Origin: Candidatus Poribacteria bacterium
GTDB taxonomy: Bacteria > Poribacteria > DTPJ01 > WJIO01
Length of the DNA: 14,918 bases
Assembly: GCA_014730235.1 (NCBI GenBank)
Contig: WJIO01000380.1
Coordinates: forward strand, 1-14,918
Direction of reading: 5' to 3'
Part shown: piece after piece, positions 1 through 14,918 of the stretch
Layout of the letters: each line of letters starts with the position of its first letter
Position numbering within the stretch: position 1 is the stretch's first letter
The notes under the pieces: model-generated
The model's database searches: none
What the model was told of the DNA's origin: nothing
Seen by the model: the letters and a program-made list of their open reading frames with translations, nothing else
Made by a program: the position numbers and the translations under genes

Positions 1-158
1 ATCCTCCATTTGTTATTCATGCTTCAAGCTTTTTGAAAAAGCTTGAGCAAAAAGGAATAAGAATTTCGCAGGAATGACAAGCTGAGGGAATTTTCAAATT
101 ATTACCATACTCAAACCGGAATAGCCAAAGTTTTCACGGACATAAATTTTATGCTTGG
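1..158. repeat. Dispersed inverted-repeat element, copy A (partial at window edge)
   Basis: The right half is clear. It has the right arm of the central hairpin (GCAGGAATGACA, about 70-81), the conserved stretch GAATTTTCAAATTATTACC, the inner end CCGGAATAGCC, and an outer arm ending in ATGCTTGG at 158. It matches copy C almost base for base through the outer arm. The left half is not canonical: the hairpin's left arm is replaced or interrupted by a separate palindrome, CAAGCTTTTTGAAAAAGCTTG, at about 28-48. The true left end, if it exists, lies outside the window. The element ends 13 bases beyond the stop codon of the minus-strand UroD-like gene, so it may also act in 3'-end formation; that is inference. 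Confidence 0.7.
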
Positions 159-171
159 TTTCAGAATATAT

Positions 172-1341
172 TTAAACCATCACTTTCGGATCGATTGGAT
201 ATTTTCCCCATTGATCCCGGCATCGCTTCATTTCCAGGATGTTTTCCCGCTTTGCCCCTACGGCCAGGGAGTGGGTTGAACCCATTATATAACCACCTCC
301 AGGGGCTGCGTGGGTGAAGGCGTATCGGGCATCGCTGCGGATGTCCTCTGTTGTTCCGCTTATGATCTTTTCGTGCCAGATGCCTCCCCAAAGGCAAAGC
401 TTGTGGCCAACTCGCTCTTTCAAGGCTTTGATATCCATACCGCCTGATGCCTGGATACCTTCATAGGCATCGTAGACTTCGGCCAGTTCTTCGATTACGG
501 GCCAGGTGTGACCGCAGCAGTGTTTAAGTATTTTCAGTCCGTATTTATGAGCTTCTTCGGCATGGGCTTTGTGCCAGGGGTAGACCATCTCCCGGTATAT
601 CTCAGGACTGGCCAGTAGTCCGGTGCTGCTGCCCAGGTCACCGCAGGGCATTATGCCATCTACACCCAATTGGGCCTGGAATTTAACCTGATGAACCAGC
701 CGTCTTCCCTGGAGTTCGGCGATTTTTTTGCAGATCTCAGGTTCCATCAAAAGGTTTATCCAACCATCCTCTTCAGTGGGGCCAAATGTGGGAAATCCCA
801 AATCACCGCACATAAGCAGGATGAAATGTGTATCTTTCATCTTTTTGACGGCATGATGCACAAATTCCCATTGGGAGTCTTGAGGATCACCCAGGGGCTG
901 CTCTTCAACCCTGTCAATCTGTTCCTGCAAACCTTCCAGAGTAGGCGGCGTATATTTGCGTTCTTCCCTTCTTTCAAACAACCGGAGATCGCCAGTAACG
1001 GCTGAAACCCGATAAATATTACCTCTTTCGTCCTCATAAGTCTCGTGATCAATCTGCTTCATGGGTTTGGGGTGATAGCCTTTGGGCGGAACTCCTCCTA
1101 CAAATACTATGTCCATCTCCAGGGCATTAATCAGGTCTATGCGATCCCTTTTGTAATGTTCCACAACTTCATCCCTACGGCCGTCCCAGTAGGCTTTGGT
1201 TTGTCTGATCTTTGACTGAACAAGGGTTTCCCTTCCCAGGATATCCTCGTAAACGTTGTAATCAACGGAATGTTCACCCCAAGGTATACGATCCGGTTCC
1301 CGATGTTCCAATGCGGCAAAAACTCTTTCTCTAGGCAGCAT
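172..1341 (-). CDS. Uroporphyrinogen decarboxylase (URO-D)/MtaA-like family protein
   Basis: A 389-residue soluble protein of the URO-D/cobalamin methyltransferase superfamily, a TIM-barrel fold. Visible family signs are the N-terminal REPDRIPW segment (residues 14-21), CGDLGFPTFGP (178-188), and a late HCCGHTWPVIEEL motif (274-286). The last resembles the metal-binding H-x-C motif of MtaA/CmuA-type methyltransferases more than heme-pathway HemE. Members of this group outside heme synthesis are common beside sugar or methyl-compound genes, but the substrate cannot be read from sequence. No other heme gene is nearby, so I do not call it hemE. The ATG start at 1341 is supported by an upstream AAAGGAAA on the minus strand (rc of 1347-1354). 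It is transcribed away from the lipoprotein operon; repeat copy B begins 47 bases upstream of the start and copy A lies just beyond the stop. Confidence 0.85.
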   Translation of the reverse strand: MLPRERVFAALEHREPDRIPWGEHSVDYNVYEDILGRETLVQSKIRQTKAYWDGRRDEVVEHYKRDRIDLINALEMDIVFVGGVPPKGYHPKPMKQIDHETYEDERGNIYRVSAVTGDLRLFERREERKYTPPTLEGLQEQIDRVEEQPLGDPQDSQWEFVHHAVKKMKDTHFILLMCGDLGFPTFGPTEEDGWINLLMEPEICKKIAELQGRRLVHQVKFQAQLGVDGIMPCGDLGSSTGLLASPEIYREMVYPWHKAHAEEAHKYGLKILKHCCGHTWPVIEELAEVYDAYEGIQASGGMDIKALKERVGHKLCLWGGIWHEKIISGTTEDIRSDARYAFTHAAPGGGYIMGSTHSLAVGAKRENILEMKRCRDQWGKYPIDPKVMV

Positions 1342-1388
1342 GTAAATTTCCTTTATGTTATTCAGCTTCGCTGTTTTTAAACATTATT

Positions 1389-1529
1389 GGTTCTTCCGGG
1401 TTAAGTGCGGTAATGAAGAAAAACCCCAAATTTACAAGAAAAACTTACTTTGATTGTCATTCCTGCTTTCTCAGGAATGACAGGTTGAGAGAATTTTCAA
1501 ATTATAACCAAACTAAACCCGGGAGAACC
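1389..1529. repeat. Dispersed inverted-repeat element, copy B (141 bp)
   Basis: The ends are imperfect inverted repeats. The left end reads GGTTCTTCCGGGTTAAGTG; the right end, reverse-complemented, reads GGTTCTCCCGGGTTTAGTT. The centre has an 11-bp perfect stem TGTCATTCCTG/CAGGAATGACA (1455-1465 with 1472-1482, loop CTTTCT). The flanks ACATTATT (1381-1388) and AAATTACT (1530-1537) agree at 6 of 8 positions, compatible with a decayed target-site duplication but not proof. No protein is encoded. It lies 47 bases upstream of the start of the minus-strand UroD-like gene. With copy C it fills most of the 557-base gap between that gene and the lipoprotein; in the stretch between the copies (1530-1590) I see nothing else. 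Confidence 0.8.
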
Positions 1530-1599
1530 AAATTACTTTCAATATTAATAAATTATGTTACATTAACAAGACTGTCAGGTCAAGGTGTTTTATGAATGT

Positions 1600-1794
1600 C
1601 CAAACATAAAATTTATGTTCCTGTGTTATTGCGATAAAGTTTGATTTTTCCTGGTTCAGTGTGTTAAAGATGAGGAATTCTATATGCTATCATTCCTGCG
1701 GAAGCAGGAATGACAGGCTGAGAAAATTTTCAAATTATTACCATACTCAAACCGGAAGAGCCAAAGTTTTCACAGACATAAATTTTATGCTTGG
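1600..1794. mobile_element. MITE-like element, copy C (195 bp) with 9-bp target-site duplication
   Basis: This is the most complete copy. The outer ends are inverted repeats: left CCAAACATAAAATTTATGT, right reverse-complemented CCAAGCATAAAATTTATGT (18 of 19 identical). Inside lie the inner ends shared with the other copies (1643-1762) and a 10-bp perfect hairpin TCATTCCTGC-GGAA-GCAGGAATGA (1690-1713). The element is flanked by an exact 9-base direct repeat, TATGAATGT, at 1591-1599 and 1795-1803, directly abutting both ends. This is the signature of transposition by a DDE-type transposase acting in trans; no transposase is in the window. The right end lies 32 bases upstream of the -35 box of the lipoprotein/receptor operon, so the insertion may have altered that promoter's upstream region. 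Confidence 0.85.
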
Positions 1795-1826
1795 TATGAA
1801 TGTTGAATTAAAAAATCCGGAAATAA

Positions 1827-1855
1827 TTGACTTACTATCAGGGTTCTGATAGAAT
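1827..1855 (+). promoter_or_regulatory. Sigma70-type promoter of the lipoprotein/receptor operon
   Basis: The -35 box TTGACT (1827-1832) and -10 box TAGAAT (1850-1855) are separated by exactly 17 bases, each matching 5 of 6 consensus bases. The start codon of the first gene follows at 1899 after a GGAGGT ribosome-binding site (1888-1893). Transcription would begin near 1862. The promoter lies directly downstream of repeat copy C. Confidence 0.65.
1835..1852. promoter_or_regulatory. Candidate operator palindrome in the promoter spacer
   Basis: CTATCAG-GGTT-CTGATAG is a perfect 7-bp inverted repeat with a 4-base centre. It fills the spacer between the -35 and -10 boxes and overlaps the first bases of the -10. 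This is a classical position for repressor binding and would fit regulation of a TonB-dependent uptake operon. The regulator is unknown and not encoded in the window. The sequence does not look like a standard Fur box. Confidence 0.5.
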
Positions 1856-1898
1856 AGTGGCAATGATTTTACATGTATCCAATAAATGGAGGTATGAT

Positions 1899-2396
1899 AT
1901 GATAAAAACATTAAAAATTACCGCGTTTATTCTGTTGGCTTTGATGTTTGTCTTGGGATGTGGTAACGATGAGGATGAAGAAGAGGCAGATTTACCATCA
2001 ACCGGATCAATCTCAGGTACGATAACCTTTGTAGATGAGCCACCGGAAGCTGAGGTTAAGGTTCAGGTATCAATCTTTTCCATGGTTGATCCTACAACCA
2101 ATATGCCCATGGGCCCACCAGCCCATTATAGCGATCCCCTTACTCAGCATACCGGAAATGTTCCCTATCAAATATCCGGTGTATCTTTTGGTGAATACAA
2201 GCTGGCGGCAGTGGGTTATGCTGTTGTGGGAGAAGGTTCGGGAATGCCTAATAATATAATCGGTATGTATGGTTTTTCCCCACCAGTTGATATGGAACCC
2301 GATTCTTTTTCCGTGACTGAAGAACAGCCGGATATTACAGGAATTGATATTATCGCCACCTATGCTTCCGAAGAGCAAAATCAGCATCCCCAATAA
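1899..2396 (+). CDS. Small lipoprotein, first gene of the TonB-receptor operon
   Basis: A 165-residue lipoprotein. The signal peptide is MIKTLK followed by a hydrophobic stretch and the lipobox VLGC, with Cys21 the predicted lipidated residue. A very acidic linker follows (GNDEDEEEAD, 22-31), then one predicted beta-rich domain (about 36-155) beginning SISGTITFVDEPPE and containing the motif VSFGEYKLAAVGY. This resembles carboxypeptidase-regulatory or transthyretin-like beta-sandwich modules; the match is by pattern only. An internal PTTNMPMGPPAH segment is rich in Met, Pro and His. The start at 1899 was chosen because GGAGGT sits 5 bases upstream and the signal peptide begins there; reading on to 1827 would translate the promoter. 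The receptor gene follows after 16 bases, so the protein is probably an accessory surface or periplasmic partner of the receptor. Specific function unknown. Confidence 0.8.
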   Translation: MIKTLKITAFILLALMFVLGCGNDEDEEEADLPSTGSISGTITFVDEPPEAEVKVQVSIFSMVDPTTNMPMGPPAHYSDPLTQHTGNVPYQISGVSFGEYKLAAVGYAVVGEGSGMPNNIIGMYGFSPPVDMEPDSFSVTEEQPDITGIDIIATYASEEQNQHPQ

Positions 2397-2412
2397 TCTG
2401 GATAATTAGATT

Positions 2413-4422
2413 ATGTATTTAAAATTCCTTCATATATTTCTGATATTGTTTCTGGTTTTTCCGGTATATTCCCAATCGGATGAAGATGATGAAGCTGGGG
2501 AAATTCTTGCTATACCTGATATTATTATTACATCCGAGCGGATTGAGCAGACCAGCAGAAGCTCGACAGCTACTGTAAATATATTATCCTGGGATATAAT
2601 ATCCGAAAATAATATCACCGCCTTTGACCGGGCCCTGGAGACCATCCCCGGCTTGACTCTGAATCGTTCGGCTGGAACGGCTACCAACTCAGTCAGTATC
2701 CGGGGGGCGTCGGACCTGCTGGGCGGAGGTGTTGGCAACCGGGTTTTACTGTTGATTGACGGTCGTCCTGCAATTACAGCCGATACCGGCGGAGCCAATT
2801 GGAGCATGCTGCCTATGGGTGTTGTGGATCGGGTGGAAGTGGTTAAAGGGGCCTTATCACCCCTGTATGGATCAAACGCAATGGGCGGTGTTGTGAATTT
2901 TATTACAAAATCACCCTCTGATTCCCGGAAAACCAGAATAAACATGGGACTGGGATATTATGAAAAACCGCCGGAATGGATGCAGTATAGGGATAAAAGG
3001 GATTATTTCGGTGACATAAGCATAACCCAATCCGACACCTACGGAGGATTGGGTTATGTTCTTGATCTGGGCTTGAAAAACTCCGATGGCTATCGCCAGA
3101 ACACGGATTTTTCCCTATATAACGCCTATGGAAAAATGCAGTATGTAACCGATAACAACCTGAAGATAAACTTTTCGGCGGGAAGAAACTCCCTGGATAG
3201 AGGTTACCCCCATACATGGCTTATCAATAATCAATCGCCTTTCGTGCATCCCCTGAAAATAGCATATCCAAAGACCAACGACAGGCAGACAAAGGACTCA
3301 TGGAATATCAACCTTTCCCTGGATTCACCTGTGGGTTCTAATATGAAGCTTTCCGGTGATCTGTATCACTTTAAGAATTATTCAAAATCCATATATAATC
3401 CGAATGGGCTGGAAGGTGATAACCAGCCGGAGGGATTTTTTACCGACTCTGACGCTAGGAAAACCGGTGGAATTCTGCAACTGGATATGTTTGGCCTGGA
3501 AAGAAATTACCTTATACTTGGCCTGGATCTGCAAATGGACTCGGTGAATTCCCATCCCCCGGATATGATGTTTGGAAAACACAGGGCTGAAACCCTGGCT
3601 GGCTTTGCCCAGGATAAGATTACGATAACCGATAAGCTGATCTTTATGGTCGGGGCCAGATATGATTACCGAAACATCGAAGATGGTATAGATGAGGGCC
3701 AATTAAGCCCGAAAGCCGGTATATCTTATCAGTTAAATGATGACGCCTCCCTTCGACTTTCTGCCGGTCAGGCTTTCAGGTCGCCGTCACTGGCGGAGAT
3801 ATACCTTCGGGAGGAACTGCACGCGGGTATTGAATTTGTGGAAAATAAGGAACTGCGGTCGGAAAAGCTGCGTTTTTATTCTGAATTTGGTATACGTCGT
3901 AAGTTTTTTAACTTTTTGAATACAGATACAGCAATTTTTGTCTACGATTTTTCAGACATGATATTCTGGCAGCCCATAGGCAATAACCAGTTCCAGGTTA
4001 CAAACCTCAGCCGCTCCACAATCAGTGGTATAGAAACGGGATTTAACATACATTGGAAGGACATTTCCTGCACAGCTAATTACACATACCTTGATGCAAA
4101 GGATAAAACCCAGGGACGAAGTGATGACAATCTTCCCTATAAACCAAAACATACTGCCTATGGATCACTAGGCTATCAATTCAGGGGTTTTCAGTTGCAG
4201 ACTTCTCTTAGATATGTCAGTAAAATTGACGAGGTTATATTTTATGCCAACGATAACCCGGAAGCCTTTTATGTTATAGATTCCCAGTTATCTTATCGTT
4301 TATCCAACAATTTAAGGTTTTCTGTCATAATTGACAATCTATTAGATCGGCAGTATGAAGAAATGGCCCGTTATCGCAGACCGGGAAGGTCTGTATCATT
4401 TAGACTTATGATCGGCGAATAA
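2413..4422 (+). CDS. TonB-dependent outer-membrane receptor (BtuB/CirA-like architecture)
   Basis: A 669-residue TonB-dependent receptor. The N-terminal signal peptide (about 1-20) ends at PVYSQS, followed by an acidic stretch and a TonB-box-like segment PDIIITSERIE (35-45), close in form to the BtuB-type box. The plug domain (about 46-165) shows the expected motifs: ALETIPGLTLNRSAG, VSIRGAS, LLIDGRPA, VDRVEVVKGALSPLYGSNA, MGGVVNFITK. The rest is a 22-strand-type barrel with a late YKPKHTAYGSLGY segment and a C-terminal DNLLDRQYEEMARYRRPGRSVSFRL, typical of the last strands. It has no N-terminal carboxypeptidase-like or signalling extension. Such proteins bring scarce ligands (metal chelates, cobalamin, oligomers) across the outer membrane using TonB energy; the ligand here is not evident. 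The ATG start follows the lipoprotein stop by 16 bases with only a weak ribosome-binding site, suggesting translational coupling. Confidence 0.95.
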   Translation: MYLKFLHIFLILFLVFPVYSQSDEDDEAGEILAIPDIIITSERIEQTSRSSTATVNILSWDIISENNITAFDRALETIPGLTLNRSAGTATNSVSIRGASDLLGGGVGNRVLLLIDGRPAITADTGGANWSMLPMGVVDRVEVVKGALSPLYGSNAMGGVVNFITKSPSDSRKTRINMGLGYYEKPPEWMQYRDKRDYFGDISITQSDTYGGLGYVLDLGLKNSDGYRQNTDFSLYNAYGKMQYVTDNNLKINFSAGRNSLDRGYPHTWLINNQSPFVHPLKIAYPKTNDRQTKDSWNINLSLDSPVGSNMKLSGDLYHFKNYSKSIYNPNGLEGDNQPEGFFTDSDARKTGGILQLDMFGLERNYLILGLDLQMDSVNSHPPDMMFGKHRAETLAGFAQDKITITDKLIFMVGARYDYRNIEDGIDEGQLSPKAGISYQLNDDASLRLSAGQAFRSPSLAEIYLREELHAGIEFVENKELRSEKLRFYSEFGIRRKFFNFLNTDTAIFVYDFSDMIFWQPIGNNQFQVTNLSRSTISGIETGFNIHWKDISCTANYTYLDAKDKTQGRSDDNLPYKPKHTAYGSLGYQFRGFQLQTSLRYVSKIDEVIFYANDNPEAFYVIDSQLSYRLSNNLRFSVIIDNLLDRQYEEMARYRRPGRSVSFRLMIGE

Positions 4423-4444
4423 TATACGGGGGATAGGTGATATT

Positions 4445-4741
4445 ATGTTTCTGGAAATAGCACAATGGATACCCAGGATAATTGGTTTTGCTATTGCCGG
4501 TTTTTGCTATATGTTTATGCTGGAACTAAGTACAGAGGGTTGGGGAGCAGCCCTTTCCCATTTTATACAGGGCACCGCTTTCCTGATTTTGACTCTCCTT
4601 AGCTGGAAATGGGGTTTCTGGGGCGGTCTTTTATATATAAGTTTCGGGATTTTTATAGTTATCAAAGAGCGCAAAGGTCGTTTTGTAGTTATTGCTTCAA
4701 CTACTTTAATATTAACGGGCATCATGTTTATCATATTCTGA
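4445..4741 (+). CDS. Small integral membrane protein (about four helices)
   Basis: A 98-residue hydrophobic protein with about four predicted membrane segments: near 9-28, 38-53, 56-73 and 79-97. Short charged loops lie between them, including KERKGR (74-79), which should face the cytoplasm by the positive-inside rule. Aromatic residues are frequent (WKWGFWGG, 53-60). I recognise the general look of small uncharacterised membrane families of about 100 residues but cannot assign a name. GGGGATAGGTGA upstream provides a ribosome-binding site for the ATG at 4445. It begins 22 bases after the receptor stop and ends 15 bases before the P1 hydrolase start, so it belongs to the same operon. A role as inner-membrane accessory to uptake is possible but unsupported. 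Confidence 0.75.
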   Translation: MFLEIAQWIPRIIGFAIAGFCYMFMLELSTEGWGAALSHFIQGTAFLILTLLSWKWGFWGGLLYISFGIFIVIKERKGRFVVIASTTLILTGIMFIIF

Positions 4742-4756
4742 AAGGACTGGTCTACA

Positions 4757-5716
4757 TTGTCAAACTTGTATAATGCCATTACAGATGTTCCCGGTATAAA
4801 GGTCGGTCATGCAACAAACAGGGTAGCCCTTACCGGATGTTCAGTTGTATTATGCGAAGACGGAGCGGTGGCTGGTGTGGACGTTCGGGGTTCTGCACCC
4901 GGCACAAGGGAAACTGATGCGTTGAATCCCATTAACACCATTAGCAAAATACATGGTGTAATGCTTACCGGCGGAAGCGCTTTTGGTCTGGATGCGGCTG
5001 GTGGTGTTATGAAATATCTGGAGGAGCTTGGTTATGGTTATGCCATGGTTGATTTGCGAATACCCATAGTTCCAGCGGCTGTGATATTTGATCTCATGGT
5101 AGGCGACAGCTCTGTAAGACCTGATAAGGAAATGGGTTATTTGGCATGTCTTAACGCCAAAATCGGTCATGTGGAAGAAGGAAACGTAGGGGCTGGAACA
5201 GGCGCAACTGTAGGTAAAGCTCTGGGTATGAATAAGTGCATGAAATCCGGTATAGGTACAGCCAGTATAAATTTAGGAGATATAGTTATAGGAGCGATTA
5301 TGGTAGTAAACGCTCTGGGGGATGTTATTGATCCCGACTCCGGGAAAATAGTCGCCGGTGCTTATGATCGTAAAACCAATCAGTTTGTAAATATAGTCCA
5401 GCGCATGATGAAATTAAAATCCAAAGTTGAATCAGGCAATACCACTATAGGGGTAATTGCTACCAATGCCCGACTGAATAAACCCCAGGCAACAAAAATA
5501 TCACAGATGGCACATGACGGTCTGGCTCGGGCTATCCGACCTGTTCACACTATGGCCGATGGTGATACTATCTTTGCCCTTTCCACAGATGATGTAAGGG
5601 CAGATATAAATGTCATAGGCACAGCCGCTGCTGAGGTTACGGTTATGGCAATATTAAACGCTGTCAAAAAATCAGAAGGTTTTGCCGATATACCCGGATA
5701 TGTTAATATTAATTAA
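4757..5716 (+). CDS. P1-family N-terminal-nucleophile peptidase/amidase (DmpA/NylC type)
   Basis: A 319-residue cytoplasmic hydrolase of the DmpA/L-aminopeptidase D-esterase/6-aminohexanoate-oligomer hydrolase family. These proteins are made as a precursor and cut themselves into two chains, freeing a Ser or Thr nucleophile. Visible signs are the N-terminal ITDVPGIKVGHAT, the segment GVDVRGSAPGTRETDAL, LTGGSAFGLDAAGG (70-83), EEGNVGAGTGATVGK (140-154) and the cleavage motif SGNTTIGVIATNARL. Self-cleavage is expected between Asn228 and Thr229, as in NylC-type members, rather than Gly-Ser as in DmpA. The start is TTG, with AAAGGA about 10 bases upstream. No signal peptide is seen. As last gene of the receptor operon, it suggests that the imported compound contains an amide, peptide or ester bond to be hydrolysed inside the cell. 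Substrates in the family range from D- and beta-peptides to nylon oligomers. Confidence 0.9.
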   Translation: MSNLYNAITDVPGIKVGHATNRVALTGCSVVLCEDGAVAGVDVRGSAPGTRETDALNPINTISKIHGVMLTGGSAFGLDAAGGVMKYLEELGYGYAMVDLRIPIVPAAVIFDLMVGDSSVRPDKEMGYLACLNAKIGHVEEGNVGAGTGATVGKALGMNKCMKSGIGTASINLGDIVIGAIMVVNALGDVIDPDSGKIVAGAYDRKTNQFVNIVQRMMKLKSKVESGNTTIGVIATNARLNKPQATKISQMAHDGLARAIRPVHTMADGDTIFALSTDDVRADINVIGTAAAEVTVMAILNAVKKSEGFADIPGYVNIN

Positions 5717-5733
5717 TCTCCTATAGAGATTTT
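5715..5733 (+). terminator. Weak hairpin at the end of the receptor operon
   Basis: AATCTC-CTATA-GAGATT forms a 6-bp stem overlapping the end of the P1 hydrolase gene, followed by only a short T run. It is a weak candidate for an intrinsic terminator. The rest of the 5734-5858 stretch is AT-rich and shows nothing else I can name. Confidence 0.3.
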
Positions 5734-5858
5734 ACTAAATATTTACAATTTTGGCAATCAAAAATCTCAACTTTTTAATGGAAATTCTATAGATAGTATA
5801 TTATGCCTTCTCCGTTTCCAGTCGAGTAAAATTATTAAATTAATCAGAAAAATTTCAC

Positions 5859-5887
5859 TTGACAGTATGGGTTTTTCCATCTATACT
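5859..5887 (+). promoter_or_regulatory. Consensus sigma70 promoter for the tRNA pair
   Basis: The -35 box TTGACA (5859-5864) is a perfect consensus match. The -10 box TATACT (5882-5887) differs at one position, and the spacer is 17 bases. The tRNA-Val gene begins 23 bases after the -10 box. This is the strongest promoter in the window and fits a stable-RNA gene. Confidence 0.85.
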
Positions 5888-5910
5888 TAATATTACCGTT
5901 TAACTGGACG

Positions 5911-5987
5911 GGGCGGATAGCTCAGTTGGTTAGAGCGCCGGCCTTACAAGCCGGAGGTCATAGGTTCAAGTCCTGTTCCGCCTACCA
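5911..5987 (+). tRNA. tRNA-Val (anticodon TAC)
   Basis: A complete cloverleaf of 77 bases with encoded CCA (5985-5987). The acceptor stem is GGGCGGA/TCCGCCT (one G-U pair), the D arm GCTC/GAGC, and the anticodon stem CCGGC/GCCGG with loop CTTACAA, giving anticodon TAC at 5945-5947. The variable loop is AGGTC, and the T arm carries loop TTCAAGT. The gene is transcribed with tRNA-Asp, which starts 7 bases downstream. Confidence 0.97.
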
Positions 5988-5994
5988 GTAGTGC

Positions 5995-6073
5995 GGGGCT
6001 GTGGTGCAGTCTGGTCTAACACGCTGGCCTGTCAAGCCAGAGATCGCGGGTTCAATTCCCGTCAGCCCCGCCA
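5995..6073 (+). tRNA. tRNA-Asp (anticodon GTC)
   Basis: A complete cloverleaf of 79 bases with encoded CCA (6071-6073). The acceptor stem GGGGCTG/CAGCCCC is perfect and the discriminator base is G. The anticodon stem is CTGGC/GCCAG with loop CTGTCAA, giving anticodon GTC at 6031-6033. The T loop is TTCAATT. The D loop is long (11 bases), which accounts for the extra length. A run of seven T residues follows at once (6074-6080) and probably marks the transcript end. Confidence 0.97.
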
Positions 6074-6278
6074 TTTTTTTACCCATTTTCATTTTTTATC
6101 CCTACCTTTCCGCTAAAAGTAAAATTCCAATGAAAAATCAGCAATCCATAATAAAATTTATATATTTCATTAAACATATATCAATGATTTTGAAGTTTTT
6201 CCAAACTAACCCATAAGAACCATATATATTTAGTGGGTTACCCGATAAAAATCAAGCATTAGCCATGAGGTGATCACA
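6074..6278. other. Intergenic stretch between the tRNA-Asp gene and rtcB
   Basis: AT-rich DNA without a credible gene. It starts with a T7 run that may end the tRNA transcript. It contains a spaced inverted repeat, TAACCCA (6207-6213) and TGGGTTA (6234-6240), around an AT-rich TATATATT. The rtcB promoter should be in this stretch, but I find no pair of -35/-10 boxes that I trust. Confidence 0.4.
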
Positions 6279-7742: not shown

Positions 7743-7768
7743 AACTCAAGAAGGAGGGTAGATTCTCC

Positions 7769-9064
7769 ATGTTAGATCTAAAGTATATCAGGGAAAATGC
7801 AGACAAAGTCAGAGAAATGCTTCGGAATCGTAATCTCTCCGATTCCCTGAGTGATCTGGACAAACTTCTGGAATGTGACGAGAAGCGTCGAAATATACTG
7901 CCTGAATTGGAGCAACTCAGACATAAAAGAAACGAAGTTTCAAAGCAGATCGGTGCTTTGAAGCGGGAAAAAAAGGACGCTTCCAAGCAGATAGAAGATA
8001 TGCGTTTAACAAGAGATAGAATCCAGGAACTTGAGGAATCAGTCAGGTCACTGGATGAAAGTATAAGGGAGATCACCCTCGGTTTGCCCAACATGCTTCA
8101 CTCAAGTGTTCCTATCGGAGCTGACCCCAGTGAAAACGTGGTGGTTCGAACCTGGGGAGAAAAGCCGGAATTTGATTTTGAACCTGCACCCCACTGGGAA
8201 ATAGGCGAAACCCTGGGAATTCTGGATTTCGAGCGCGGCGCAAAACTGGCCGGTAGCAACTTTGTTTTATACAAAGGTCTGGGTGCAAGGCTTGAGCGGG
8301 CCCTGATAAGCTTGATGCTGGACCTGCATACCAATAAACATGGCTATACTGAGATACTTCCACCCTACATAGGAAATCGGATTATCCTTACAGGCAGCGG
8401 ACAACTTCCCAAGTTTGAGGATCAGGTGTATCAATGCGACAAAGGCATTGATTCAAAGGACGACCTTTTTCTTATCCCAACGGCTGAAGTTCCGTTGGCA
8501 AACTATCATTCAGGAGAAATACTTAACGGTGACGATTTACCCTTGAGATATACGGCGTTTACCCCATGCTTCCGAAGAGAAGCCGGGGCATATGGAAAAG
8601 ACACTCGAGGTCTTGTGCGTATACACCAGTTTAACAAGGTGGAAATGTTTAAATACACCAAGCCTGAAGATTCCTATGAAGAACTGGAATCAATGGTGAA
8701 GGACGCAGAGGAAGTACTTCAATTGCTGGAACTTCCATACCAAGTTACAAGCCTGTGTTCGGCGGATGTAAGCGCAGCCATGGCCAAGACCTATGACATC
8801 GAAGTCTGGATGCCGGGATTGAATAGATTCCAGGAAGTATCCTCGTGCAGCAACGGCGAGGAGTATCAAGCCCGAAGAACTAACATCAGATACCGTCCTG
8901 AACCGGGAAAATCTGTGGAATTTCCTCACATGCTCAACGGTTCGGGTGTTGCCACGCCCAGAACATTTATCGCTATACTGGAAAATTTCCAGCAGAAGGA
9001 CGGCTCTGTAATTATTCCCAAGGCCTTGCGTTCTTATATGAATGGGGTTGAGAAGATAGGCTGA
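7769..9064 (+). CDS. serS: Seryl-tRNA synthetase
   Basis: A 431-residue class II aminoacyl-tRNA synthetase of normal bacterial length. The N-terminal arm (about 28-105) is a charged coiled coil that would contact the long variable arm of tRNA-Ser. The catalytic domain shows the serine-binding TAE (238-240), motif 2 FTPCFRREAGAYGKDTRGL (264-282), the HQFNKVEMF segment, and motif 3 NGSGVATPRTFIAILEN (390-406). Motif 3 reads TPRTF where many SerRS have VGRTL, a variant that keeps the ATP-binding Arg. The ATG is well supported by AAGGAGGG (7751-7758). It is cotranscribed with rtcB (26-base gap). No T-box or other leader is present in that gap, so it is probably expressed with rtcB. Confidence 0.97.
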   Translation: MLDLKYIRENADKVREMLRNRNLSDSLSDLDKLLECDEKRRNILPELEQLRHKRNEVSKQIGALKREKKDASKQIEDMRLTRDRIQELEESVRSLDESIREITLGLPNMLHSSVPIGADPSENVVVRTWGEKPEFDFEPAPHWEIGETLGILDFERGAKLAGSNFVLYKGLGARLERALISLMLDLHTNKHGYTEILPPYIGNRIILTGSGQLPKFEDQVYQCDKGIDSKDDLFLIPTAEVPLANYHSGEILNGDDLPLRYTAFTPCFRREAGAYGKDTRGLVRIHQFNKVEMFKYTKPEDSYEELESMVKDAEEVLQLLELPYQVTSLCSADVSAAMAKTYDIEVWMPGLNRFQEVSSCSNGEEYQARRTNIRYRPEPGKSVEFPHMLNGSGVATPRTFIAILENFQQKDGSVIIPKALRSYMNGVEKIG

Positions 9065-9078
9065 TTTATTTTAATGAG

Positions 9079-9168
9079 AATAGCACACGGATTAGACGGA
9101 TGATACGGATTTTCATAGATTATACATGAAAATTTATCCGCGCTAATCCTTATTATCCGTGTTCTATT
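9079..9168. repeat. Imperfect inverted repeat (ACACGGAT type) between serS and the DUF433 gene
   Basis: The left arm (9079-9115) and right arm (9126-9168) are reverse-complementary with small gaps. The outer part AATAGCACACGGAT pairs with ATCCGTGTTCTATT, and the inner part TTTTCAT pairs with ATGAAAA around a 10-base loop. Both arms consist of degenerate CGGAT units. It differs in sequence from the TCATTCCTGC family. CGGAT-rich hairpins of this general kind occur as dispersed intergenic repeats in many bacterial genomes. A T-rich tail follows (TTTTTCTTTTT), so the structure could also end the rtcB-serS transcript. No target-site duplication is seen. Confidence 0.7.
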
Positions 9169-9192
9169 TTTCTTTTTCAGGAGTTGGTTAGT

Positions 9193-9411
9193 TTGAATCC
9201 TCTTCTTAAACGCATAATCACTAATCCAGAAATTTGTTTTGGTAAACCATGTATACGAGGAACCAGAATATGGGTTTCTCTTATTCTCGATCTTCTTTCT
9301 GTTGGTACAGAAATTGATGATATAATAAGTGAATACCCAGAACTAACGAAAGATGATATTTATGCATCTATAGCTTATGGCGCAGAGATGAATAATATTA
9401 TACCTATCTAA
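9193..9411 (+). CDS. DUF433 domain protein (antitoxin-like), without a recognisable toxin partner
   Basis: A 72-residue protein covering the whole DUF433 domain. The pattern RIITNPEICFGKPCIRGTRI, then LDLLSVGTEIDDIISEYPELTKDDIYASIAYG, is characteristic; the second half is a predicted helix-turn-helix. Family members often act as the antitoxin-like partner of a PIN-like DUF5615 protein encoded just downstream. Here the next gene is a methyltransferase, so it looks orphaned. I place the start at TTG 9193, since AGGAG at 9179-9183 is 9 bases upstream; a TTG at 9184 lies directly against that site. The gene is AT-rich and sits next to a dispersed inverted repeat, which is compatible with horizontal transfer. 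It ends 12 bases before the methyltransferase and is probably cotranscribed. Confidence 0.85.
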   Translation: MNPLLKRIITNPEICFGKPCIRGTRIWVSLILDLLSVGTEIDDIISEYPELTKDDIYASIAYGAEMNNIIPI

Positions 9412-9423
9412 GGGGATTTATGA

Positions 9424-10185
9424 ATGTCAGACATGGCCCATCCATATACGAAGTTTGCAGCGGCATATGATCAGATGATGGAAAATGTAGATTATGACCG
9501 ATGGGCAGATTATATTGATCGCTTGTTTTCGTTTTACAATCATCACCCCAAGCGGGTGCTGGATATTGCATGTGGAACTGGTTCAGCCACCATCAAGCTG
9601 GCGGAAAAGGGATACCAGATGTCCGGCACTGACCGGGCTTTGGAGATGCTTATATGGGCCAGGGAGAAAGCTGAGAAGAATAAACTGCATTTGACACTGT
9701 GGCAGCAGGATATGAGATATCTCAGCATCAAAAAGCCTTATTATGATGCGGCTCTATGTCTTTATGACAGCATAAATTATATAACGACTGAAGAGGAGAT
9801 GCTGGAGTTTTTCCACAGGGTAAATGAAGCCCTTAGGCCCAAAGGTATGTTTATATTTGATGTTACCACTGAACATAACATTGTTAAGCATTTCCACCGA
9901 CAGACTTTTGCTGAGAGCTATGATGATTTTTCATATATATGGCGAAATCTTTATTTCCATCAGGAGAAAGTCTGCAAAACTATACTTACTTTCTTTTTGA
10001 AAGAAGACGATCATTACGGAAAATATGAGGAGCTTCATATTCAAAAGATTTACTCGATCAAGCAAATGAAGAAAATGCTGGATGATTCAGGTTTTAAGCT
10101 TTTAAGCTCATTTGATGCCTTTACGTTTAACAGATGGGGCAGGACTTCTGAGCGCATAAATTTAACCGCTGTGAAAAACGATTAA
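9424..10185 (+). CDS. Class I SAM-dependent methyltransferase
   Basis: A 253-residue methyltransferase with a Rossmann-like fold. An N-terminal YTKFAAAYDQMMENVDYDRWADYI (8-31) is typical of YqeM-like small-molecule methyltransferases. Motif I is VLDIACGTGSATIKLAEKG (45-63), which binds S-adenosylmethionine, with Asp70 at the end of strand 2. The segment WQQDMRYL precedes DAALCLYDSINYI, the motif IV region. The C-terminal half (YIWRNLYFHQEK to the end) is a beta-rich substrate region as in that subfamily. The substrate is unknown. The ATG is supported by AGGGGA (9411-9416). It lies in a run of four closely spaced genes ending at the terminator near 12000, so the DUF2007-like protein and the Gfo/Idh/MocA oxidoreductase are its likely expression partners. 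Confidence 0.9.
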   Translation: MSDMAHPYTKFAAAYDQMMENVDYDRWADYIDRLFSFYNHHPKRVLDIACGTGSATIKLAEKGYQMSGTDRALEMLIWAREKAEKNKLHLTLWQQDMRYLSIKKPYYDAALCLYDSINYITTEEEMLEFFHRVNEALRPKGMFIFDVTTEHNIVKHFHRQTFAESYDDFSYIWRNLYFHQEKVCKTILTFFLKEDDHYGKYEELHIQKIYSIKQMKKMLDDSGFKLLSSFDAFTFNRWGRTSERINLTAVKND

Positions 10186-10210
10186 CCTTTACCTGAAGGC
10201 GGTGCAGAAA

Positions 10211-10855
10211 ATGTTTGGTATATTTTCAAAGCGTAGAAAAAAAAGGGAAAATTTGACTGTGGTATACAGCACCAGAGACGACTGGGAAGCGGAGGTTGTC
10301 AGAACTGCTTTGCTGAATGAAGGCATCAAGGCTTATGTGGAAATCATAAAAGACGAAGACAAGAATCGAAAGACGACAGTCTCTGTGCCTGCTGCCAAGT
10401 TAAAAGAAGCGGAGATGGTTATACGCAGAACTTCCCTTGTAATAATGAATAAAGAAAACATAATAGCCGAACAGGAAGAGCGGGAGAAAAACGCATCAAA
10501 GCAAGAAAAAGAAAAAAAGACTGAGGAGCAATATACGGAAGTTGCCGAAAAGAAACCTGTGGGAGAGCCGGAACTGCTAGCGGAAAAAGACGGAACTGGT
10601 AAGATATTATATTATGAAGAAGCTGATCAGTATGAGTTAAGGTTGGAGTTTGAATTCTACAAAAAATCCCATTTTATGCCTGCGGAAGAATGGGAGGAAT
10701 TTATTGATTTCAGTGCCCAAAGGCAGGAATTCTTTATACTGCTAAAGGAAAAATATCCTCAATTAGCGTCTTTGGTAAAAGAAAATAAAATGCGCGCAGA
10801 TTTATTGAAACTTATTGAATATTCCTACGGAAAAAGCACCCCACCAAAAAATTGA
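10211..10855 (+). CDS. DUF2007-type N-terminal domain with charged linker and unknown C-terminal domain
   Basis: A 214-residue soluble protein. The first segment is basic (SKRRKKRE, 6-13). Residues about 14-75 (LTVVYSTRDDWEAEVVRTALLNEGIKAYV, then VSVPAAKLKEAEMVI) fit DUF2007, a small ferredoxin-like alpha/beta domain annotated as a putative signal-transducing module. A Lys/Glu-rich helical linker follows (about 85-115). The C-terminal domain (about 125-208), beginning ILYYEEADQYELRLEFEFYKK, is one I do not recognise. I chose the ATG at 10211, 7 bases after AAGGCGGT (10196-10203); the GTG at 10202 falls within that site. No membrane segment is seen. It lies 25 bases after the methyltransferase and 61 before the oxidoreductase. 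Function unknown; the DUF2007 assignment is by pattern. Confidence 0.7.
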   Translation: MFGIFSKRRKKRENLTVVYSTRDDWEAEVVRTALLNEGIKAYVEIIKDEDKNRKTTVSVPAAKLKEAEMVIRRTSLVIMNKENIIAEQEEREKNASKQEKEKKTEEQYTEVAEKKPVGEPELLAEKDGTGKILYYEEADQYELRLEFEFYKKSHFMPAEEWEEFIDFSAQRQEFFILLKEKYPQLASLVKENKMRADLLKLIEYSYGKSTPPKN

Positions 10856-10916
10856 ATATTGGTTACTCCTGTATTAAATCTTATTTACAAAATCAAAGTT
10901 ATGAAAGGGAAAATGT

Positions 10917-11978
10917 ATGGCAGATTCAAAACCTATTAAAATTGGTCTTGCGGGTCTTGGTCGGGCAGGCCGGGGTATGCACATCAGGGAACTGGAAGCG
11001 AGAAAGGACAAGTTTCAGGTTGAGGCTGTATGTGATGTTATAGAAGAACGCCGCAATCAGCTTGCTGAGCAGTTAGGATGTAAGGCCTACGCAAATGTTA
11101 AAGACCTGATCGTCGATCCCGATGTGGAAATGGTTGACATTGCTACCCGATCATGCGACCATTACGACCATGCAAAAATGGCCCTGGAAGCCGGTAAGGA
11201 TGTCTTTCTGGAAAAACCCATGACATGTACCTACAAAGAGGCTGTTTCTCTCAGAGATATTTCCAAAGGTTCTGAGGGCAACCTTTATATAAGGCAGAAT
11301 CGCCGTTTTGAACCGGGTTTCCAGCATATCCGGGAGATTATGGCTTCGGGAATACTGGGTGATATATACGAGATCAAACTGCGAAGGGTTAGTTATTCCC
11401 GCCGGGATGACTGGCAGACTATCATCGAATTCGGTGGTGGGCAGCTTCTAAACTGGGGGCCTCATATCATAGATCATGGTCTGCAGTTTCTGGACTCACC
11501 CCTGAAAGATATTTGGAGCGAACTCAAGCTAATAGCTGCTGTAGGTGATGCAGAAGACCACCTCAAGATTATTCTTAAAGGTGAAAACGATCGCATTGTA
11601 GACCTGGAAATCAGCGGCGGAGCAGCTATATCCGAACCGGAATATCTGCTTTGGGGAACAAAAGGCGCGCTTAAATGTGCTGGTAACAAGATAACCATGA
11701 AATACCTTGACCCCAATGCCGAACTCGCGCCCCGCAAGCTAAATCCCGGAACTCCGGAAGGAGGGTTCGGCAGTCCTGATTCCCTGCCCTGGATCGAGGA
11801 AAATATTGACGTAAATCCTCAGAAAAAAGTCAGCATGAGCGGTATATGGGATGAGCTTTATAAGGCAGTTCGGGAAGATATCCCCTTCCCGGTTAAGCTG
11901 GACGAAGCTGTAGAGATAATGAAAGTTGTATCAGCAGCTAAAGAAGACACTGAGTTTTATTATGCCGGAAGAGTTTAA
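10917..11978 (+). CDS. Gfo/Idh/MocA-family NAD(P)-dependent oxidoreductase
   Basis: A 353-residue oxidoreductase of typical family length. The N-terminal Rossmann domain starts IKIGLAGLGRAGRGMHIREL (7-26, dinucleotide-binding G-x-G-x-x-G type). It continues with VEAVCD at the end of strand 2, MVDIATRS, and the LEKP motif (98-101) carrying the catalytic Lys100. The C-terminal alpha/beta domain includes GGGQLLNWGPHIIDHGLQFL (173-192), where Asp186/His187 occupy the region of the family's second catalytic motif. Such enzymes oxidise or reduce sugars, inositols or their derivatives; the substrate cannot be told. The ATG has AAAGGGA about 6 bases upstream. It is the last gene of its operon: a strong hairpin terminator begins 5 bases after the stop. 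A link with the UroD-like gene at the left of the window, a frequent companion class in carbohydrate clusters, is only speculative. Confidence 0.93.
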   Translation: MADSKPIKIGLAGLGRAGRGMHIRELEARKDKFQVEAVCDVIEERRNQLAEQLGCKAYANVKDLIVDPDVEMVDIATRSCDHYDHAKMALEAGKDVFLEKPMTCTYKEAVSLRDISKGSEGNLYIRQNRRFEPGFQHIREIMASGILGDIYEIKLRRVSYSRRDDWQTIIEFGGGQLLNWGPHIIDHGLQFLDSPLKDIWSELKLIAAVGDAEDHLKIILKGENDRIVDLEISGGAAISEPEYLLWGTKGALKCAGNKITMKYLDPNAELAPRKLNPGTPEGGFGSPDSLPWIEENIDVNPQKKVSMSGIWDELYKAVREDIPFPVKLDEAVEIMKVVSAAKEDTEFYYAGRV

Positions 11979-11983
11979 ATCCT

Positions 11984-12023
11984 AAAAGCAATCTCAAGGG
12001 GGATGAGGTTGCTTTTATTTTTT
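11984..12023 (+). terminator. Rho-independent terminator after the Gfo/Idh/MocA gene
   Basis: A 13-bp stem, AAAAGCAATCTCA (11984-11996) with TGAGGTTGCTTTT (12004-12016), has one G-U pair and loop AGGGGGA. A T6 tract follows (12018-12023). It starts 5 bases past the stop codon and is the clearest terminator in the window. Confidence 0.9.
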
Positions 12024-12072
12024 CAAAAAGGTAAAGAAGGACCTGGGGGATTTAGTTTGGTTTAATCGTTTT

Positions 12073-12191
12073 GGCTATTCCGGGTTCAGTGTGGTAAAGA
12101 TAAGAAACTTCTTTATGCCGTCATTCCTGCTTTTGCAGGAATGACAAGCTTAGAGAATTTCAACTATAACCACACTAAATCCGGAATAACC
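12073..12191. mobile_element. MITE-like element, copy D (119 bp) with 8-bp target-site duplication
   Basis: Inverted ends: left GGCTATTCCGGGTTCAGTG, right reverse-complemented GGTTATTCCGGATTTAGTG (16 of 19 identical). The central hairpin is an 11-bp perfect stem, GTCATTCCTGC-TTTT-GCAGGAATGAC (12120-12145). An exact 8-base direct repeat, ATCGTTTT, abuts both ends (12065-12072 and 12192-12199), as expected for a target-site duplication. It lacks the outer arms seen in copies A and C. It lies between the Gfo/Idh/MocA terminator and the phosphoinositide-PLC-like gene, ending 52 bases before that gene's start. No coding capacity. Confidence 0.85.
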
Positions 12192-12243
12192 ATCGTTTTA
12201 AACAATATGGATTATAAAATCCCTTGAAGAAAGGAAATTTAAA

Positions 12244-13383
12244 TTGCGAGTAAGAATCCTTTTAGTGGCAACCTTCTTTGCCTTCAGCTTTTCTCTGTTT
12301 TGTATAGGACAAGCAGACGAAAATATGGAGTGGATGAATAAGAACATAAAGATTAACCAGATACAGGTATTTGGTAGCCACAATAGCTACAAAGAAGCTA
12401 TTGCCCCTGCGTTGATGGAGATGATCAAAGCGGAAAACCCAAAACTTGCCAGGGAGTTGGACTACAGCCATATTTCCCTTACTGAGCAGCTTAACCTTGG
12501 TCTTCGGAAACTGGAAATTGATATTTACTACGATCCCGAAGGCGTTAGATACGCAAAACCTTATGGGATTACCAAGCTAAAAGAGATGGGACTACCCACA
12601 GGGCCCGAATATGATCCTGAAGGCTTAATGCTTAAGCCGGGATTTAAGGTGCTGCATATTCAGGATATTGATTTCCGCAGTAACTGCCTGACCCTGAAAA
12701 TATGTCTTGAAGAATTAAAAGCCTGGTCAGATGCCCACCCAACACACTTTCCTATAGTTATCACCATGAACACCAATGATGGTATAATTGACAAACCCGA
12801 TTATACCCGTCCTGTTCCTTACGATACCGAAGCCTACGATGAACTGGACAAGGAATTCCTGTCAGTTTTTCCCGCCGAAAGGATCATAAAGCCTGATGAC
12901 GTAAGAGGCGATTATGAAACCCTGGAAGAAGCCGTTCTCGCTCATAACTGGCCGACTCTGGGAGAAGCCCGGGGTAAGATCATGTTTGTGCTGGATCAAA
13001 GTAACCATAAGCTGGAGGCTTATGCCAAAGGTCATCCATCGTTAAAAGACAGGATAATGTTTGTCAATGCCACAGAAGGAAGGCCAGAGGCGGCTTTTCG
13101 TATTGTAAACGATCCCATTAAAGACTTTGATTATATAAGCCAGTTGGTGAAAAAAGGTTACATTGTTCGTACAAGGGCCGACGCCGGTACAGAAGAAGCC
13201 CGAACCGGTGATACAACACGCAGGGAAAAAGCCTTTGCCTGCGGCGCGCATATCGTAAGCACGGATTATTATAATCCTGATCCCAGGTTTGGAACTGGCT
13301 ATAAAGTAGAACTCCCCGGCGGCGTTGTTGCCCGATGGAATCCCCTGTTTGAGGACATGCCGGATTTCCCGCCTGCGGAATAG
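12244..13383 (+). CDS. Exported Ca2+-dependent phosphoinositide-specific phospholipase C-like protein
   Basis: A 379-residue protein of the bacterial Ca2+-dependent phosphatidylinositol phospholipase C group (PI-PLC-C1 type, TIM-barrel phosphodiesterase). The N-terminus MRVRILLVATFFAFSFSLF is a Sec signal peptide, cut probably near GQA-DE (21-25); SLFC is a poor lipobox, so I favour a free exported form. The catalytic region shows QVFGSHNSYK with His46, LRKLEIDIYYDPEG with Glu91 and Asp93 as likely metal ligands, and LHIQDIDFRSNC with the second His138. Later segments IVITMNTNDG, FVLDQSN and VRTRADAGTEEART complete the barrel, ending VVARWNPLFEDMP. Likely role: cleavage of phosphodiester-linked lipids or polyols outside the cytoplasm. 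The start is TTG, with AAGGAA 8 bases upstream (12231-12236). It is alone in its transcript and runs convergently into the radical SAM gene, with only 19 bases between the two stops. Confidence 0.88.
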   Translation: MRVRILLVATFFAFSFSLFCIGQADENMEWMNKNIKINQIQVFGSHNSYKEAIAPALMEMIKAENPKLARELDYSHISLTEQLNLGLRKLEIDIYYDPEGVRYAKPYGITKLKEMGLPTGPEYDPEGLMLKPGFKVLHIQDIDFRSNCLTLKICLEELKAWSDAHPTHFPIVITMNTNDGIIDKPDYTRPVPYDTEAYDELDKEFLSVFPAERIIKPDDVRGDYETLEEAVLAHNWPTLGEARGKIMFVLDQSNHKLEAYAKGHPSLKDRIMFVNATEGRPEAAFRIVNDPIKDFDYISQLVKKGYIVRTRADAGTEEARTGDTTRREKAFACGAHIVSTDYYNPDPRFGTGYKVELPGGVVARWNPLFEDMPDFPPAE

Positions 13384-13402
13384 GTTTTAGGTTAATAAAA
13401 AT

Positions 13403-14659
13403 TTAGCTATAGCTTTTTTGAGCCAATAGTTCATGCCCCGGTGCGGAATATGGTCCGCAGTTGCAGACGTAATAATCCGGGCTTTGACCGTGCCGGGTAA
13501 AATCCTCCTCCAGGTCTTCCCACATTTTCCTGGATGCCCGACATAAAGCATAAGGTGTTTCAGGGCTTAGTTTTTCAATTTCGTCAATTATAAATCTATA
13601 AATCTTTTTCCTGTATTCGTGGGGTATCTGGCATCCCTGTAGACATGGTTTACCCTGGGCTTCTTTCATTAAATTTATAAATTCCGGATCAAGAAGCGAG
13701 GTATCCATCGTCTGGTGAATCTTATTGTAATCCAGAAAACGTAGAGTTTCAAAAGTTATTAAATCCGGTCTGGTTTGGGAGAATATAAGACGAATCAACT
13801 CCCTGTTTTCTTCCTGCCAGTTCTTTACAGGGATTATGGGTGACAGTCGGAAACGCACATGATAACCGGCTTCCTGACATAAACGAGCAGATTCTATGCG
13901 GTCTTCCATAGATGCGGCTTTATATTCAAAATTCTGGCTCTGGGTTATTCCGCTGACGCTCCAGCAGCAGAGAGTATGACCTTTGTGATCAAGTTTCAGC
14001 AGATGATCAACGTGACTGCTTTTGCCGACATATAGTTCAAGATACTCTTTTTCCCGCTGAGCAAAATATTCCACCAGTAGCTTTGAGCCGCCGTATTCCG
14101 GTTCAAAGCATACAGTATCGGTGTAATTGTCGTATTGATATAGGGTTTGTCCTGGAGCGCGTTTAATGGTATCGTCTATGTAAGTAATCATATCCTCCAT
14201 ATTCATCATAATATTTACGAAATGCCCCAGATGACAATAGGAACAACGGAAATGACAGCCCACAATAGAATGAAGCTGAAACGCCGGATTACATACCAAA
14301 CCAGTGCGCTTGCGATAAGCCCGAGAACCGCTTTCCCGCCAGTCTATGCCGCCGTAACCGGAAAGCCGGGTTATTTTGAATATACCAGGATACTTTTCCT
14401 GACGGCGTTTTCTCTCCTCTGGTGTATCCTCAAATCTGTATCGGTTAAAAACTACAACTGGCTTAATATCCGCATTCATGCCGTGATTTTTGACTCTAAA
14501 CTCATCGGATAAGACAGCATTATTGAGTTTTTCATCATCTACATATTCTATGTTATCGGTTATAATGCCGCTTTTCAGGCGTTCTGATCGCTGACGTGCA
14601 ATTGGATTTTCCTCTATACCTTCCACTATATACAGTTTTGATGCTTTTAGTGGTATCAT
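13403..14659 (-). CDS. Spore-photoproduct-lyase-like radical SAM protein
   Basis: A 418-residue radical SAM protein of the SPL-like family. The [4Fe-4S] motif is GCHFRCSYCHL, with Cys135, Cys139 and Cys142 (C-x3-C-x2-C, the spacing of spore photoproduct lyase). Further SPL-like segments are VGKSSHVDHLLKLDHKGHT (211-229), EYKAASMEDRIESARLCQEAGYHV (245-268) and LSPIIPVKNW (272-281). It is longer than classical SplB (about 340 residues), mainly at the N-terminus, and has an unusual Cys-rich C-terminus: CLQGC (339-343) and CNCG (399-402). By alignment from memory, the SplB hydrogen-donor Cys position (in FEA-S/A-C) is Tyr189 here, and one of the two tyrosines near the cluster is His143. True thymine-photoproduct repair is therefore doubtful. 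The ATG start has AGGAG 7 bases upstream on the minus strand (rc of 14667-14671). Repeat copy E begins 35 bases upstream. Confidence 0.88.
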   Translation of the reverse strand: MIPLKASKLYIVEGIEENPIARQRSERLKSGIITDNIEYVDDEKLNNAVLSDEFRVKNHGMNADIKPVVVFNRYRFEDTPEERKRRQEKYPGIFKITRLSGYGGIDWRESGSRAYRKRTGLVCNPAFQLHSIVGCHFRCSYCHLGHFVNIMMNMEDMITYIDDTIKRAPGQTLYQYDNYTDTVCFEPEYGGSKLLVEYFAQREKEYLELYVGKSSHVDHLLKLDHKGHTLCCWSVSGITQSQNFEYKAASMEDRIESARLCQEAGYHVRFRLSPIIPVKNWQEENRELIRLIFSQTRPDLITFETLRFLDYNKIHQTMDTSLLDPEFINLMKEAQGKPCLQGCQIPHEYRKKIYRFIIDEIEKLSPETPYALCRASRKMWEDLEEDFTRHGQSPDYYVCNCGPYSAPGHELLAQKSYS

Positions 14660-14694
14660 ACTTATTCTCCTGTAAGCAAGTTCAAAAGATTTAT

Positions 14695-14835
14695 GGTTCT
14701 TCCGGGTTAAGTGTGGTTATAATTGAAAATTCCCTCAGCCTGCCATTCCTGCTTTCGCAGGAATGGCAGGCAAAGTAGATTTTTCCTGTGTAATTGTGAT
14801 TTTTCTTCGTTACCACACTCAACCCAGAAAAAACC
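14695..14835. repeat. Dispersed inverted-repeat element, copy E (141 bp, opposite orientation)
   Basis: Inverted ends: left GGTTCTTCCGGGTTAAGTG, right reverse-complemented GGTTTTTTCTGGGTTGAGTG. The conserved asymmetric stretch (TTGAAAATTCCCTCAGCC) lies left of the hairpin here, so this copy is inverted relative to B, C and D. The central stem is the longest of the family: 15 perfect pairs, GCCTGCCATTCCTGC with GCAGGAATGGCAGGC (14738-14752 and 14757-14771, loop TTTC). No convincing target-site duplication is seen. It begins 35 bases upstream of the SPL-like start codon, so that gene's promoter must overlap the element, or transcription must come from further upstream. Confidence 0.8.
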
Positions 14836-14865
14836 TAAAATTTCAAAATCCTGTATTAATTTTGC

Positions 14866-14918
14866 CTAGGAATCAAGAAATTCTTTTATGACGGCTGAGT
14901 TATCCTCATCACCCAGCC
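14866..14918 (-). CDS. Probable C-terminal end of a further minus-strand gene (partial)
   Basis: Reading the minus strand from the window edge, one frame runs LGDEDNSAVIKEFLDS and ends at TAG (14866-14868). The residue mix is that of an ordinary amphipathic protein end. The other two minus-strand frames close early as well, one after three codons and one after about ten. Only 16 codons are visible, so neither identity nor reality is certain. If real, it would lie upstream of the SPL-like gene on the same strand, separated from it by repeat copy E. Confidence 0.3.
   Translation of the reverse strand, partial: LGDEDNSAVIKEFLDS

Follow-up and report, generated by a model that had tools for sequence, protein, structure and literature searches.

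The stretch of DNA analysed here, referred to as the window, is an entire contig (WJIO01000380.1, here C325; 14,918 nucleotides) of a draft metagenome assembly of a Candidatus Poribacteria bacterium, and it holds five copies, A to E, of a small inverted-repeat element. These copies are non-autonomous DNA transposons of the type known as miniature inverted-repeat transposable elements (MITEs), bounded by terminal inverted repeats (TIRs) and associated with a target duplication of fixed length. The explanation favoured here, which we regard as probable, is that they are MITEs with ISL3-type ends, and that the hairpin at their centre is a repetitive extragenic palindrome (REP) captured as cargo and forming an unstable core.

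Target duplication, copy number and age

The assembly comprises 451 contigs and 5.53 Mb (completeness 91.6%, stated contamination 4.77%), and its contigs are broken at repeats. End pairing, duplications, cores, hybrids, loops and the context of open reading frames (ORFs) were counted within a sample of 1.60 Mb (99 contigs, 29% of the genome), which is non-random, contigs having been picked partly for their hits. The flanks of paired ends of the main family, family I, match over exactly 8 bp, perfectly in 39% and with at most one mismatch in 62%, against 0.4% and 2.9% in shuffled flanks. Among complete copies, the A/T-rich 8-bp duplication is perfect in 58 of 132 and has at most one mismatch in 87 of 132, and the target consensus is AAAWWTTT. 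Family-I elements measure 63-240 bp and contain no transposase gene; they present the traits by which bacterial MITEs are recognised, being gene-less, short and TIR-bounded, with a fixed 8-bp duplication and many dispersed copies. An earlier note on the window had described the inverted ends, which are real, and had overlooked the duplications; its proposal of spread by a transposase supplied in trans is strengthened by these fixed duplications and by the lack of coding capacity in the elements. The ends GGYTCTTCCGGGTTNAGTGTGG and their inverted copy would be recognised in trans by an ISL3-type DDE transposase, and insertion by such an enzyme into A/T-rich intergenic DNA would leave the 8-bp duplication that is seen.

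A search of the whole genome for the end motif TTCCGGGTTNAGTGTGGT (at most three mismatches, with the reversed motif as control) gave 503 and 520 matches on the two strands versus 4 and 4, and a stricter TIR pattern gave 433 and 434 versus 0 and 0. The genome carries at least about 500 elements, one per about 11 kb, in line with the very high copy number that had been supposed from the window, which with its five copies is denser than the average. The intergenic location is also general: the midpoints of 152 of the 156 sampled copies lie outside ORFs of at least 120 amino acids, although such ORFs fill 85% of the sample, and divergent, convergent and co-directional gaps are occupied in proportion. 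Canonical copies have a mean identity to the consensus of 90.6% and no pair exceeds 96.7%, so that the family is old and probably no longer active; we estimate that this divergence is sufficient to account for canonical copies with mismatched duplications. Few copies, or copies conserved at orthologous sites in relatives, had been named beforehand as evidence to the contrary. Neither is the case: copies are numerous, and none of the 38 other genomes of the phylum that were searched contains the full element, the sole match (G001, from the same order) being to the hairpin only.

The hairpin core as a captured REP

The core unit consists of a tag, TGTC (391 units) or CGTC (17), an 8-bp stem ATTCCTGC with AT first and usually a 4-nt loop. 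A CCA tail stands at the untagged end of 28 units, and another 188 form closed hairpins that are tagged at both ends. The core fits the definition of the CGTC-1 REPs, which include dRS3 of Neisseria, as given by Di Nocera et al. 2013 (PMC3733652). According to that work, CGTC REPs seem to be without a dedicated transposase, and the authors suggest that transposases of many kinds might mobilise them; REP dimers were noted within larger palindromes in two species. The likeness covers the tag, the 8-bp stem starting with AT, the 4-nt loop and an intergenic distribution in hundreds of copies, and extends to the CCA tail only where the dimer is complete (PMC3733652); dRS3 is likewise suspected of mediating rearrangements (PMC3898611). 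The stem, in contrast, is ATTCCC in dRS3 and ATTCCTGC here, where the REP lies inside MITEs with fixed duplications and is mostly a closed hairpin tagged at both ends; target duplications are not treated in the sections of PMC3733652 consulted. The QMITE2 of Coxiella is similarly a MITE of 150-190 bp that holds a REP, but this is a GTAG-type REP in one family, with direct repeats of variable length (7-11 nt), and the REP is described as a target of IS1111; hybrids, or a REP common to several MITE families, are not noted in the parts of that report consulted (PMC5896051). The REP can occur independently of the MITEs, since G001 has CCA-tailed REP units but lacks these MITE ends. In the same genome, which represents the sister lineage, a short tandem array with a unit of about 22 bp, AGAAATATAGAGCAGGAATGAT, adjoins a REP (L032:1080-1230), which shows REP halves to be open to tandem copying as well. 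Some cores have a loop insert based on the palindrome CAAGCTTTTTGAAAAAGCTTG, frequently along with CAAAAAGGAATAAGA (for example window 23-67 and L064:17180-17309), which resembles a further repeat nested in the hairpin.

The core is shared by families that differ in ends and in duplication length. The sample contains 240 complete cores, 133 of them in family I, 22 in family F2 and 10 in family F3. The TIR of F2 is GTAATCGTTAAAAAATG, the ends of F3 are CTGATATTTCTAAAATTAA and TTTTAGAATTCTCAG, and those of a further family, F4, are CCAAGCATAAAATTTATG. Among copies with full ends, perfect duplications are of 5 bp in 14/34 and of 6 bp in 9/34 for F2, of 5 bp in 6/12 and of 6 bp in 4/12 for F3, and of 9 bp in 8/17 for F4, whereas the shuffled means for these lengths are about 0.3 to 0.6. 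F4, with at least 17 paired copies in the sample, has the core in 16 of 17 through a nested ISL3-type MITE, copy C of the window among them, and this composite moved as a unit. No transposase was identified for F2 or F3 in L142-L143, L049 and other sampled contigs. Core-less copies of family I (63-79 bp) keep their 8-bp duplications, as at C353:24255-24327, flanked on each side by AAAATTAT; F2 likewise has copies of 84-102 bp that lack the core. As core-less copies also have duplications, the core is a passenger that is not needed for movement. A REP hairpin of CGTC-1 type was probably captured by three or more MITE families that differ in ends and duplications. In this genome, therefore, the REPs would be spread chiefly as the cargo of several DDE-type transposons instead of by a dedicated transposase.

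Read inward from the ends, the element halves fall into half-types a to g, all of which meet at TGTCATTCCTGC, and most elements join a left type (a, c, d) to a right type (b, e). The copies in the window are composed as follows:

1..126, + strand: copy A, MITE; left half-type d truncated by the contig start, right half-type b
11-22 (decayed) and 68-79, + strand: core stems of copy A, with a 45-nt loop insert at 23-67, palindrome AAGCTTTTT...AAAAAGCTT
127..158, + strand: right terminus of the F4 element that encloses copy A; ends CATAAATTTTATGCTTGG
1389..1529, + strand: copy B, MITE c-b; TIRs GGTTCTTCCGGGTTAAGTG and inverted
1455..1482, + strand: REP-type hairpin core of copy B; TGTCATTCCTGC and TCAGGAATGACA on either side of the loop
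1600..1794, + strand: F4 composite holding copy C; TIR CCAAACATAAAATTTATG / CATAAATTTTATGCTTGG
1643..1762, + strand: copy C itself, an a-b MITE inside F4; flanking 8-mers match at 5/8
1688-1715, + strand: core of copy C; TATCATTCCTGC GGAA GCAGGAATGACA
12073..12191, + strand: copy D, canonical MITE a-b; perfect 8-bp duplication ATCGTTTT at 12065-12072 and 12192-12199
12119..12146, + strand: REP-type core of copy D; tag CGTC, stem ATTCCTGC, loop TTTT, stem GCAGGAAT, GACA
14695..14835, - strand: copy E, reverse-oriented MITE c-b; no recognisable target duplication (2/8)
14741..14768, - strand: REP-type core of copy E; identical change in both arms, TGCCATTCCTGC ... GCAGGAATGGCA

All five copies were found at about the positions given in the earlier note, with two corrections of their limits. 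Copy A, there placed at 1-158, is indeed partial; the MITE stops at 126 and the outer element takes up 127-158, the whole being the right-hand portion of an F4 nest like that at copy C, truncated by the contig start. Copy C, described as one element at 1600-1794, has real coordinates and corresponds to two nested elements; the composite is flanked by a perfect 9-bp duplication, TATGAATGT, at 1591-1599 and 1795-1803. The 8-mers that flank copy B, ACATTATT and AAATTACT, match at 6/8. The asymmetric stretch reported for all copies is the right half-module of type b, present in A to D and inverted in E. Two adjacent tRNA genes of the window (5911-6070) are ordinary.

Half-modules, hybrids and instability of the core

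Pairings of like halves are rare, a-a being seen once versus 16 expected at random and b-b twice versus 28. The loop of a-b elements is found in both orientations, purine (GAAA type) in 37 and pyrimidine (TTTC type) in 29, and because duplications are retained in both (22/37 and 20/29, respectively), the loop flips inside intact elements. The stems are conserved at 0.977 and 0.986, versus 0.891 and 0.883 for the TIRs, on which the selection of copies was based. The same change in both stem arms was found in six cases versus 0.7 in shuffles, which is what copying of one arm from its partner should produce.

In addition, 22 hybrid cores of the sample join halves of different families. Only one of the 21 hybrids with a family-I half has flanking 8-mers that match at 7/8 or better, versus 81 of 119 canonical elements; when hybrids and odd pairs within families are taken together, 3 of 29 have a duplication (Fisher p = 1.7e-8). 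Given the absence of flanking duplications, the hybrids were not inserted as such. Reciprocal exchange products are not enriched (10/5720 pairs, controls 0.19-0.73%), and template switching or deletion therefore fits better than reciprocal crossing-over. A small extra set of 11 elements with two family-I halves contained no hybrids. For dRS3, an IS110 recombinase is suspected of acting on the hairpins; this possibility fails here, since the genome has none. The likeliest cause of the instability of the core would be recombination, or template switching by the polymerase, at the hairpin, a process that could rearrange the chromosome. The core looks recombinogenic. More tentatively, the REP hairpin may be a general exchange module, in which template switching joins unrelated transposon halves, so that one hairpin is mobilised by several transposases and yields new combinations of ends as well as chromosome rearrangements; we think this broader role possible, though improbable on balance.

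The candidate transposase and other explanations

The ends, which start GGYTCTTCCGG, and the A/T-rich 8-bp duplication resemble ISL3, and for this reason the mover is presumed to be an ISL3-type transposase. Several of the ISL3 loci retrieved start with GGTTCATCCGG, another (L185) starts with GGGTCATCGGG and has the 8-bp duplication ATTTTTTT, and a published ISL3 transposon has the end GGGTCTTCGGA and the 8-bp repeat AAAATAAG (PMC9782665). The common start can be written GG(T/C)TC(T/A)TCCGG, the agreement being confined to the first 8-11 bases. Unlike ISL3 insertion sequences (ISs), the MITEs are gene-less and short, and no ISL3 gene or element with their inner end GTTNAGTGTGG was seen among the loci retrieved.

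Several points weigh against the favoured explanation. The full-length, transposase-bearing element with the same ends that the earlier note had called for was searched for and not found, either in the genome, whose assembly is 91.6% complete and broken at repeats, or in relatives with similar ends. ISL3 genes are represented in the genome by three fragments only (C391, C342 and C236), and the one visible end (C391) differs; for these reasons the label used is ISL3-type ends, and the family is not filed as a proven ISL3 member. As for the core, two b-g odd pairs do have duplications, reciprocal products are not enriched, and the hybrids could include misassemblies, mainly those with cores above 40 bp, in a draft metagenome assembly. 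Finally, the left and right half-types of family I were assigned post hoc, and the sample is partial and non-random.

Candidates for the source of the transposase were rejected in turn. On C391, a stretch of MITE-like DNA that terminates 314 bp downstream of the ISL3 fragment, its last 47 bp matching the MITE ends, made this gene plausible as the parent at first; however, this ISL3 subgroup ends at the stop codon with GGTTCATCCGG-type ends, and C391, L179 and L180 diverge right there. The ISL3 C-termini at these contig edges (L099, that is C391:1-182, L179 and L180) are near-identical (95-98% at the amino acid level); L179 and L180 come from Desulfobacteraceae and Neomarinimicrobiota metagenome assemblies, which suggests a recent IS transfer or shared contamination. 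The other two fragments lie on contigs (L097, C342; L072, C236) with XRE regulators and a primase-like gene that, where checked, have no MITE end unless several mismatches are allowed, and that may be contamination of the assembly. Among relatives in the phylum, G029, G004, G051 and others have the ends GGYTCTTCAGRGTTAAGTGTGG, but no relative that is longer and bears a gene was found; PF01610 is absent from G029, G004 and G051. These related elements with ends GGYTCTTCAGRGTTAAGTGTGG belong to other taxonomic families of the phylum (L280-L289 in G029 and G051, L274-L279 in G004); they measure about 270-650 bp in G029 and G051, with 8-bp duplications where checked. Contigs of G004 break about 31 bp inside the related element, as expected of a multi-copy IS with an unassembled interior. 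A search for Zn_ribbon_ISL3 (PF14690) gave nothing significant. Viral contigs gave one chance match within a phage coding region, and none to the closed hairpin.

A DDE transposase from outside the ISL3 family, likewise producing 8-bp duplications, is the strongest of the other explanations, and a less likely mover. The relatives with near-identical ends (G029, G051, G004) lack any ISL3 transposase, and none of the ISL3 genes seen has GTTNAGTGTGG within its end; against this, the GGYTCTTCCGG and GGTTCATCCGG starts and the A/T-rich 8-bp target match both the ISL3 loci found and the published transposon.

It is rather unlikely that this is an ordinary MITE family in which the palindrome is inherited with each element and shared with other families for unrelated reasons, the hybrids being assembly errors. 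The draft state of the assembly, the 12 of 22 hybrids with cores above 40 bp and the failure to find reciprocal products above control agree with it, but the other 10 have cores of at most 40 bp, which single reads could span, and hybrid cores resemble those of normal elements in length. Moreover, the core is a standard part of families I, F2 and F3, whose ends and duplications differ, and the loop flips in elements that retain their duplications.

Movement of the hairpins or whole elements by a Y1 (HUH) transposase, as in systems of REPs and REP-associated tyrosine transposases (RAYTs), has been largely refuted. The REP anatomy of the core and the one Y1_Tnp gene of the assembly had made it conceivable, and the earlier note had offered it as a mover; this gene, however, lies on a contig (C236) that has none of these elements, CGTC REPs are unassociated with RAYTs in the literature (PMC3733652), and fixed duplications of 8 bp (also 5-6 and 9 bp) are a DDE signature, unexpected of HUH transposases. 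The elements share with REPINs (hairpins of paired REPs) and their RAYTs the nature of high-copy, small, palindromic and intergenic mobile DNA, but no RAYT is flanked by the repeat here, the tag is TGTC or CGTC and not GTAG, and the duplications indicate DDE transposition. A family of structured non-coding RNA genes, for which the strong folding speaks (z -5.5 to -11.8), is scarcely credible: the fold follows from the inverted ends, neither the window nor three additional copies match an Rfam family, target duplications, gap-proportional gene context and absence from relatives are against it, and no orthologous positions kept across species were seen.

The CGTC REPs are, according to PMC3733652, old and widespread bacterial repeats without a known mover. 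For them, MITEs with ISL3-type ends and a captured REP core, as favoured here, offer a concrete and testable answer, namely that CGTC REPs ride as cargo in several DDE-type MITE families, and the shared hairpin may show how widespread bacterial hairpin repeats are carried. The role as an exchange module, if true, would account for their spread in the absence of a dedicated transposase. A single genome records, at several hundred loci, the instability of the hairpin in the form of loop flips, mirrored stem changes and duplication-less hybrids, and with this natural record hairpin-driven rearrangement could be measured.

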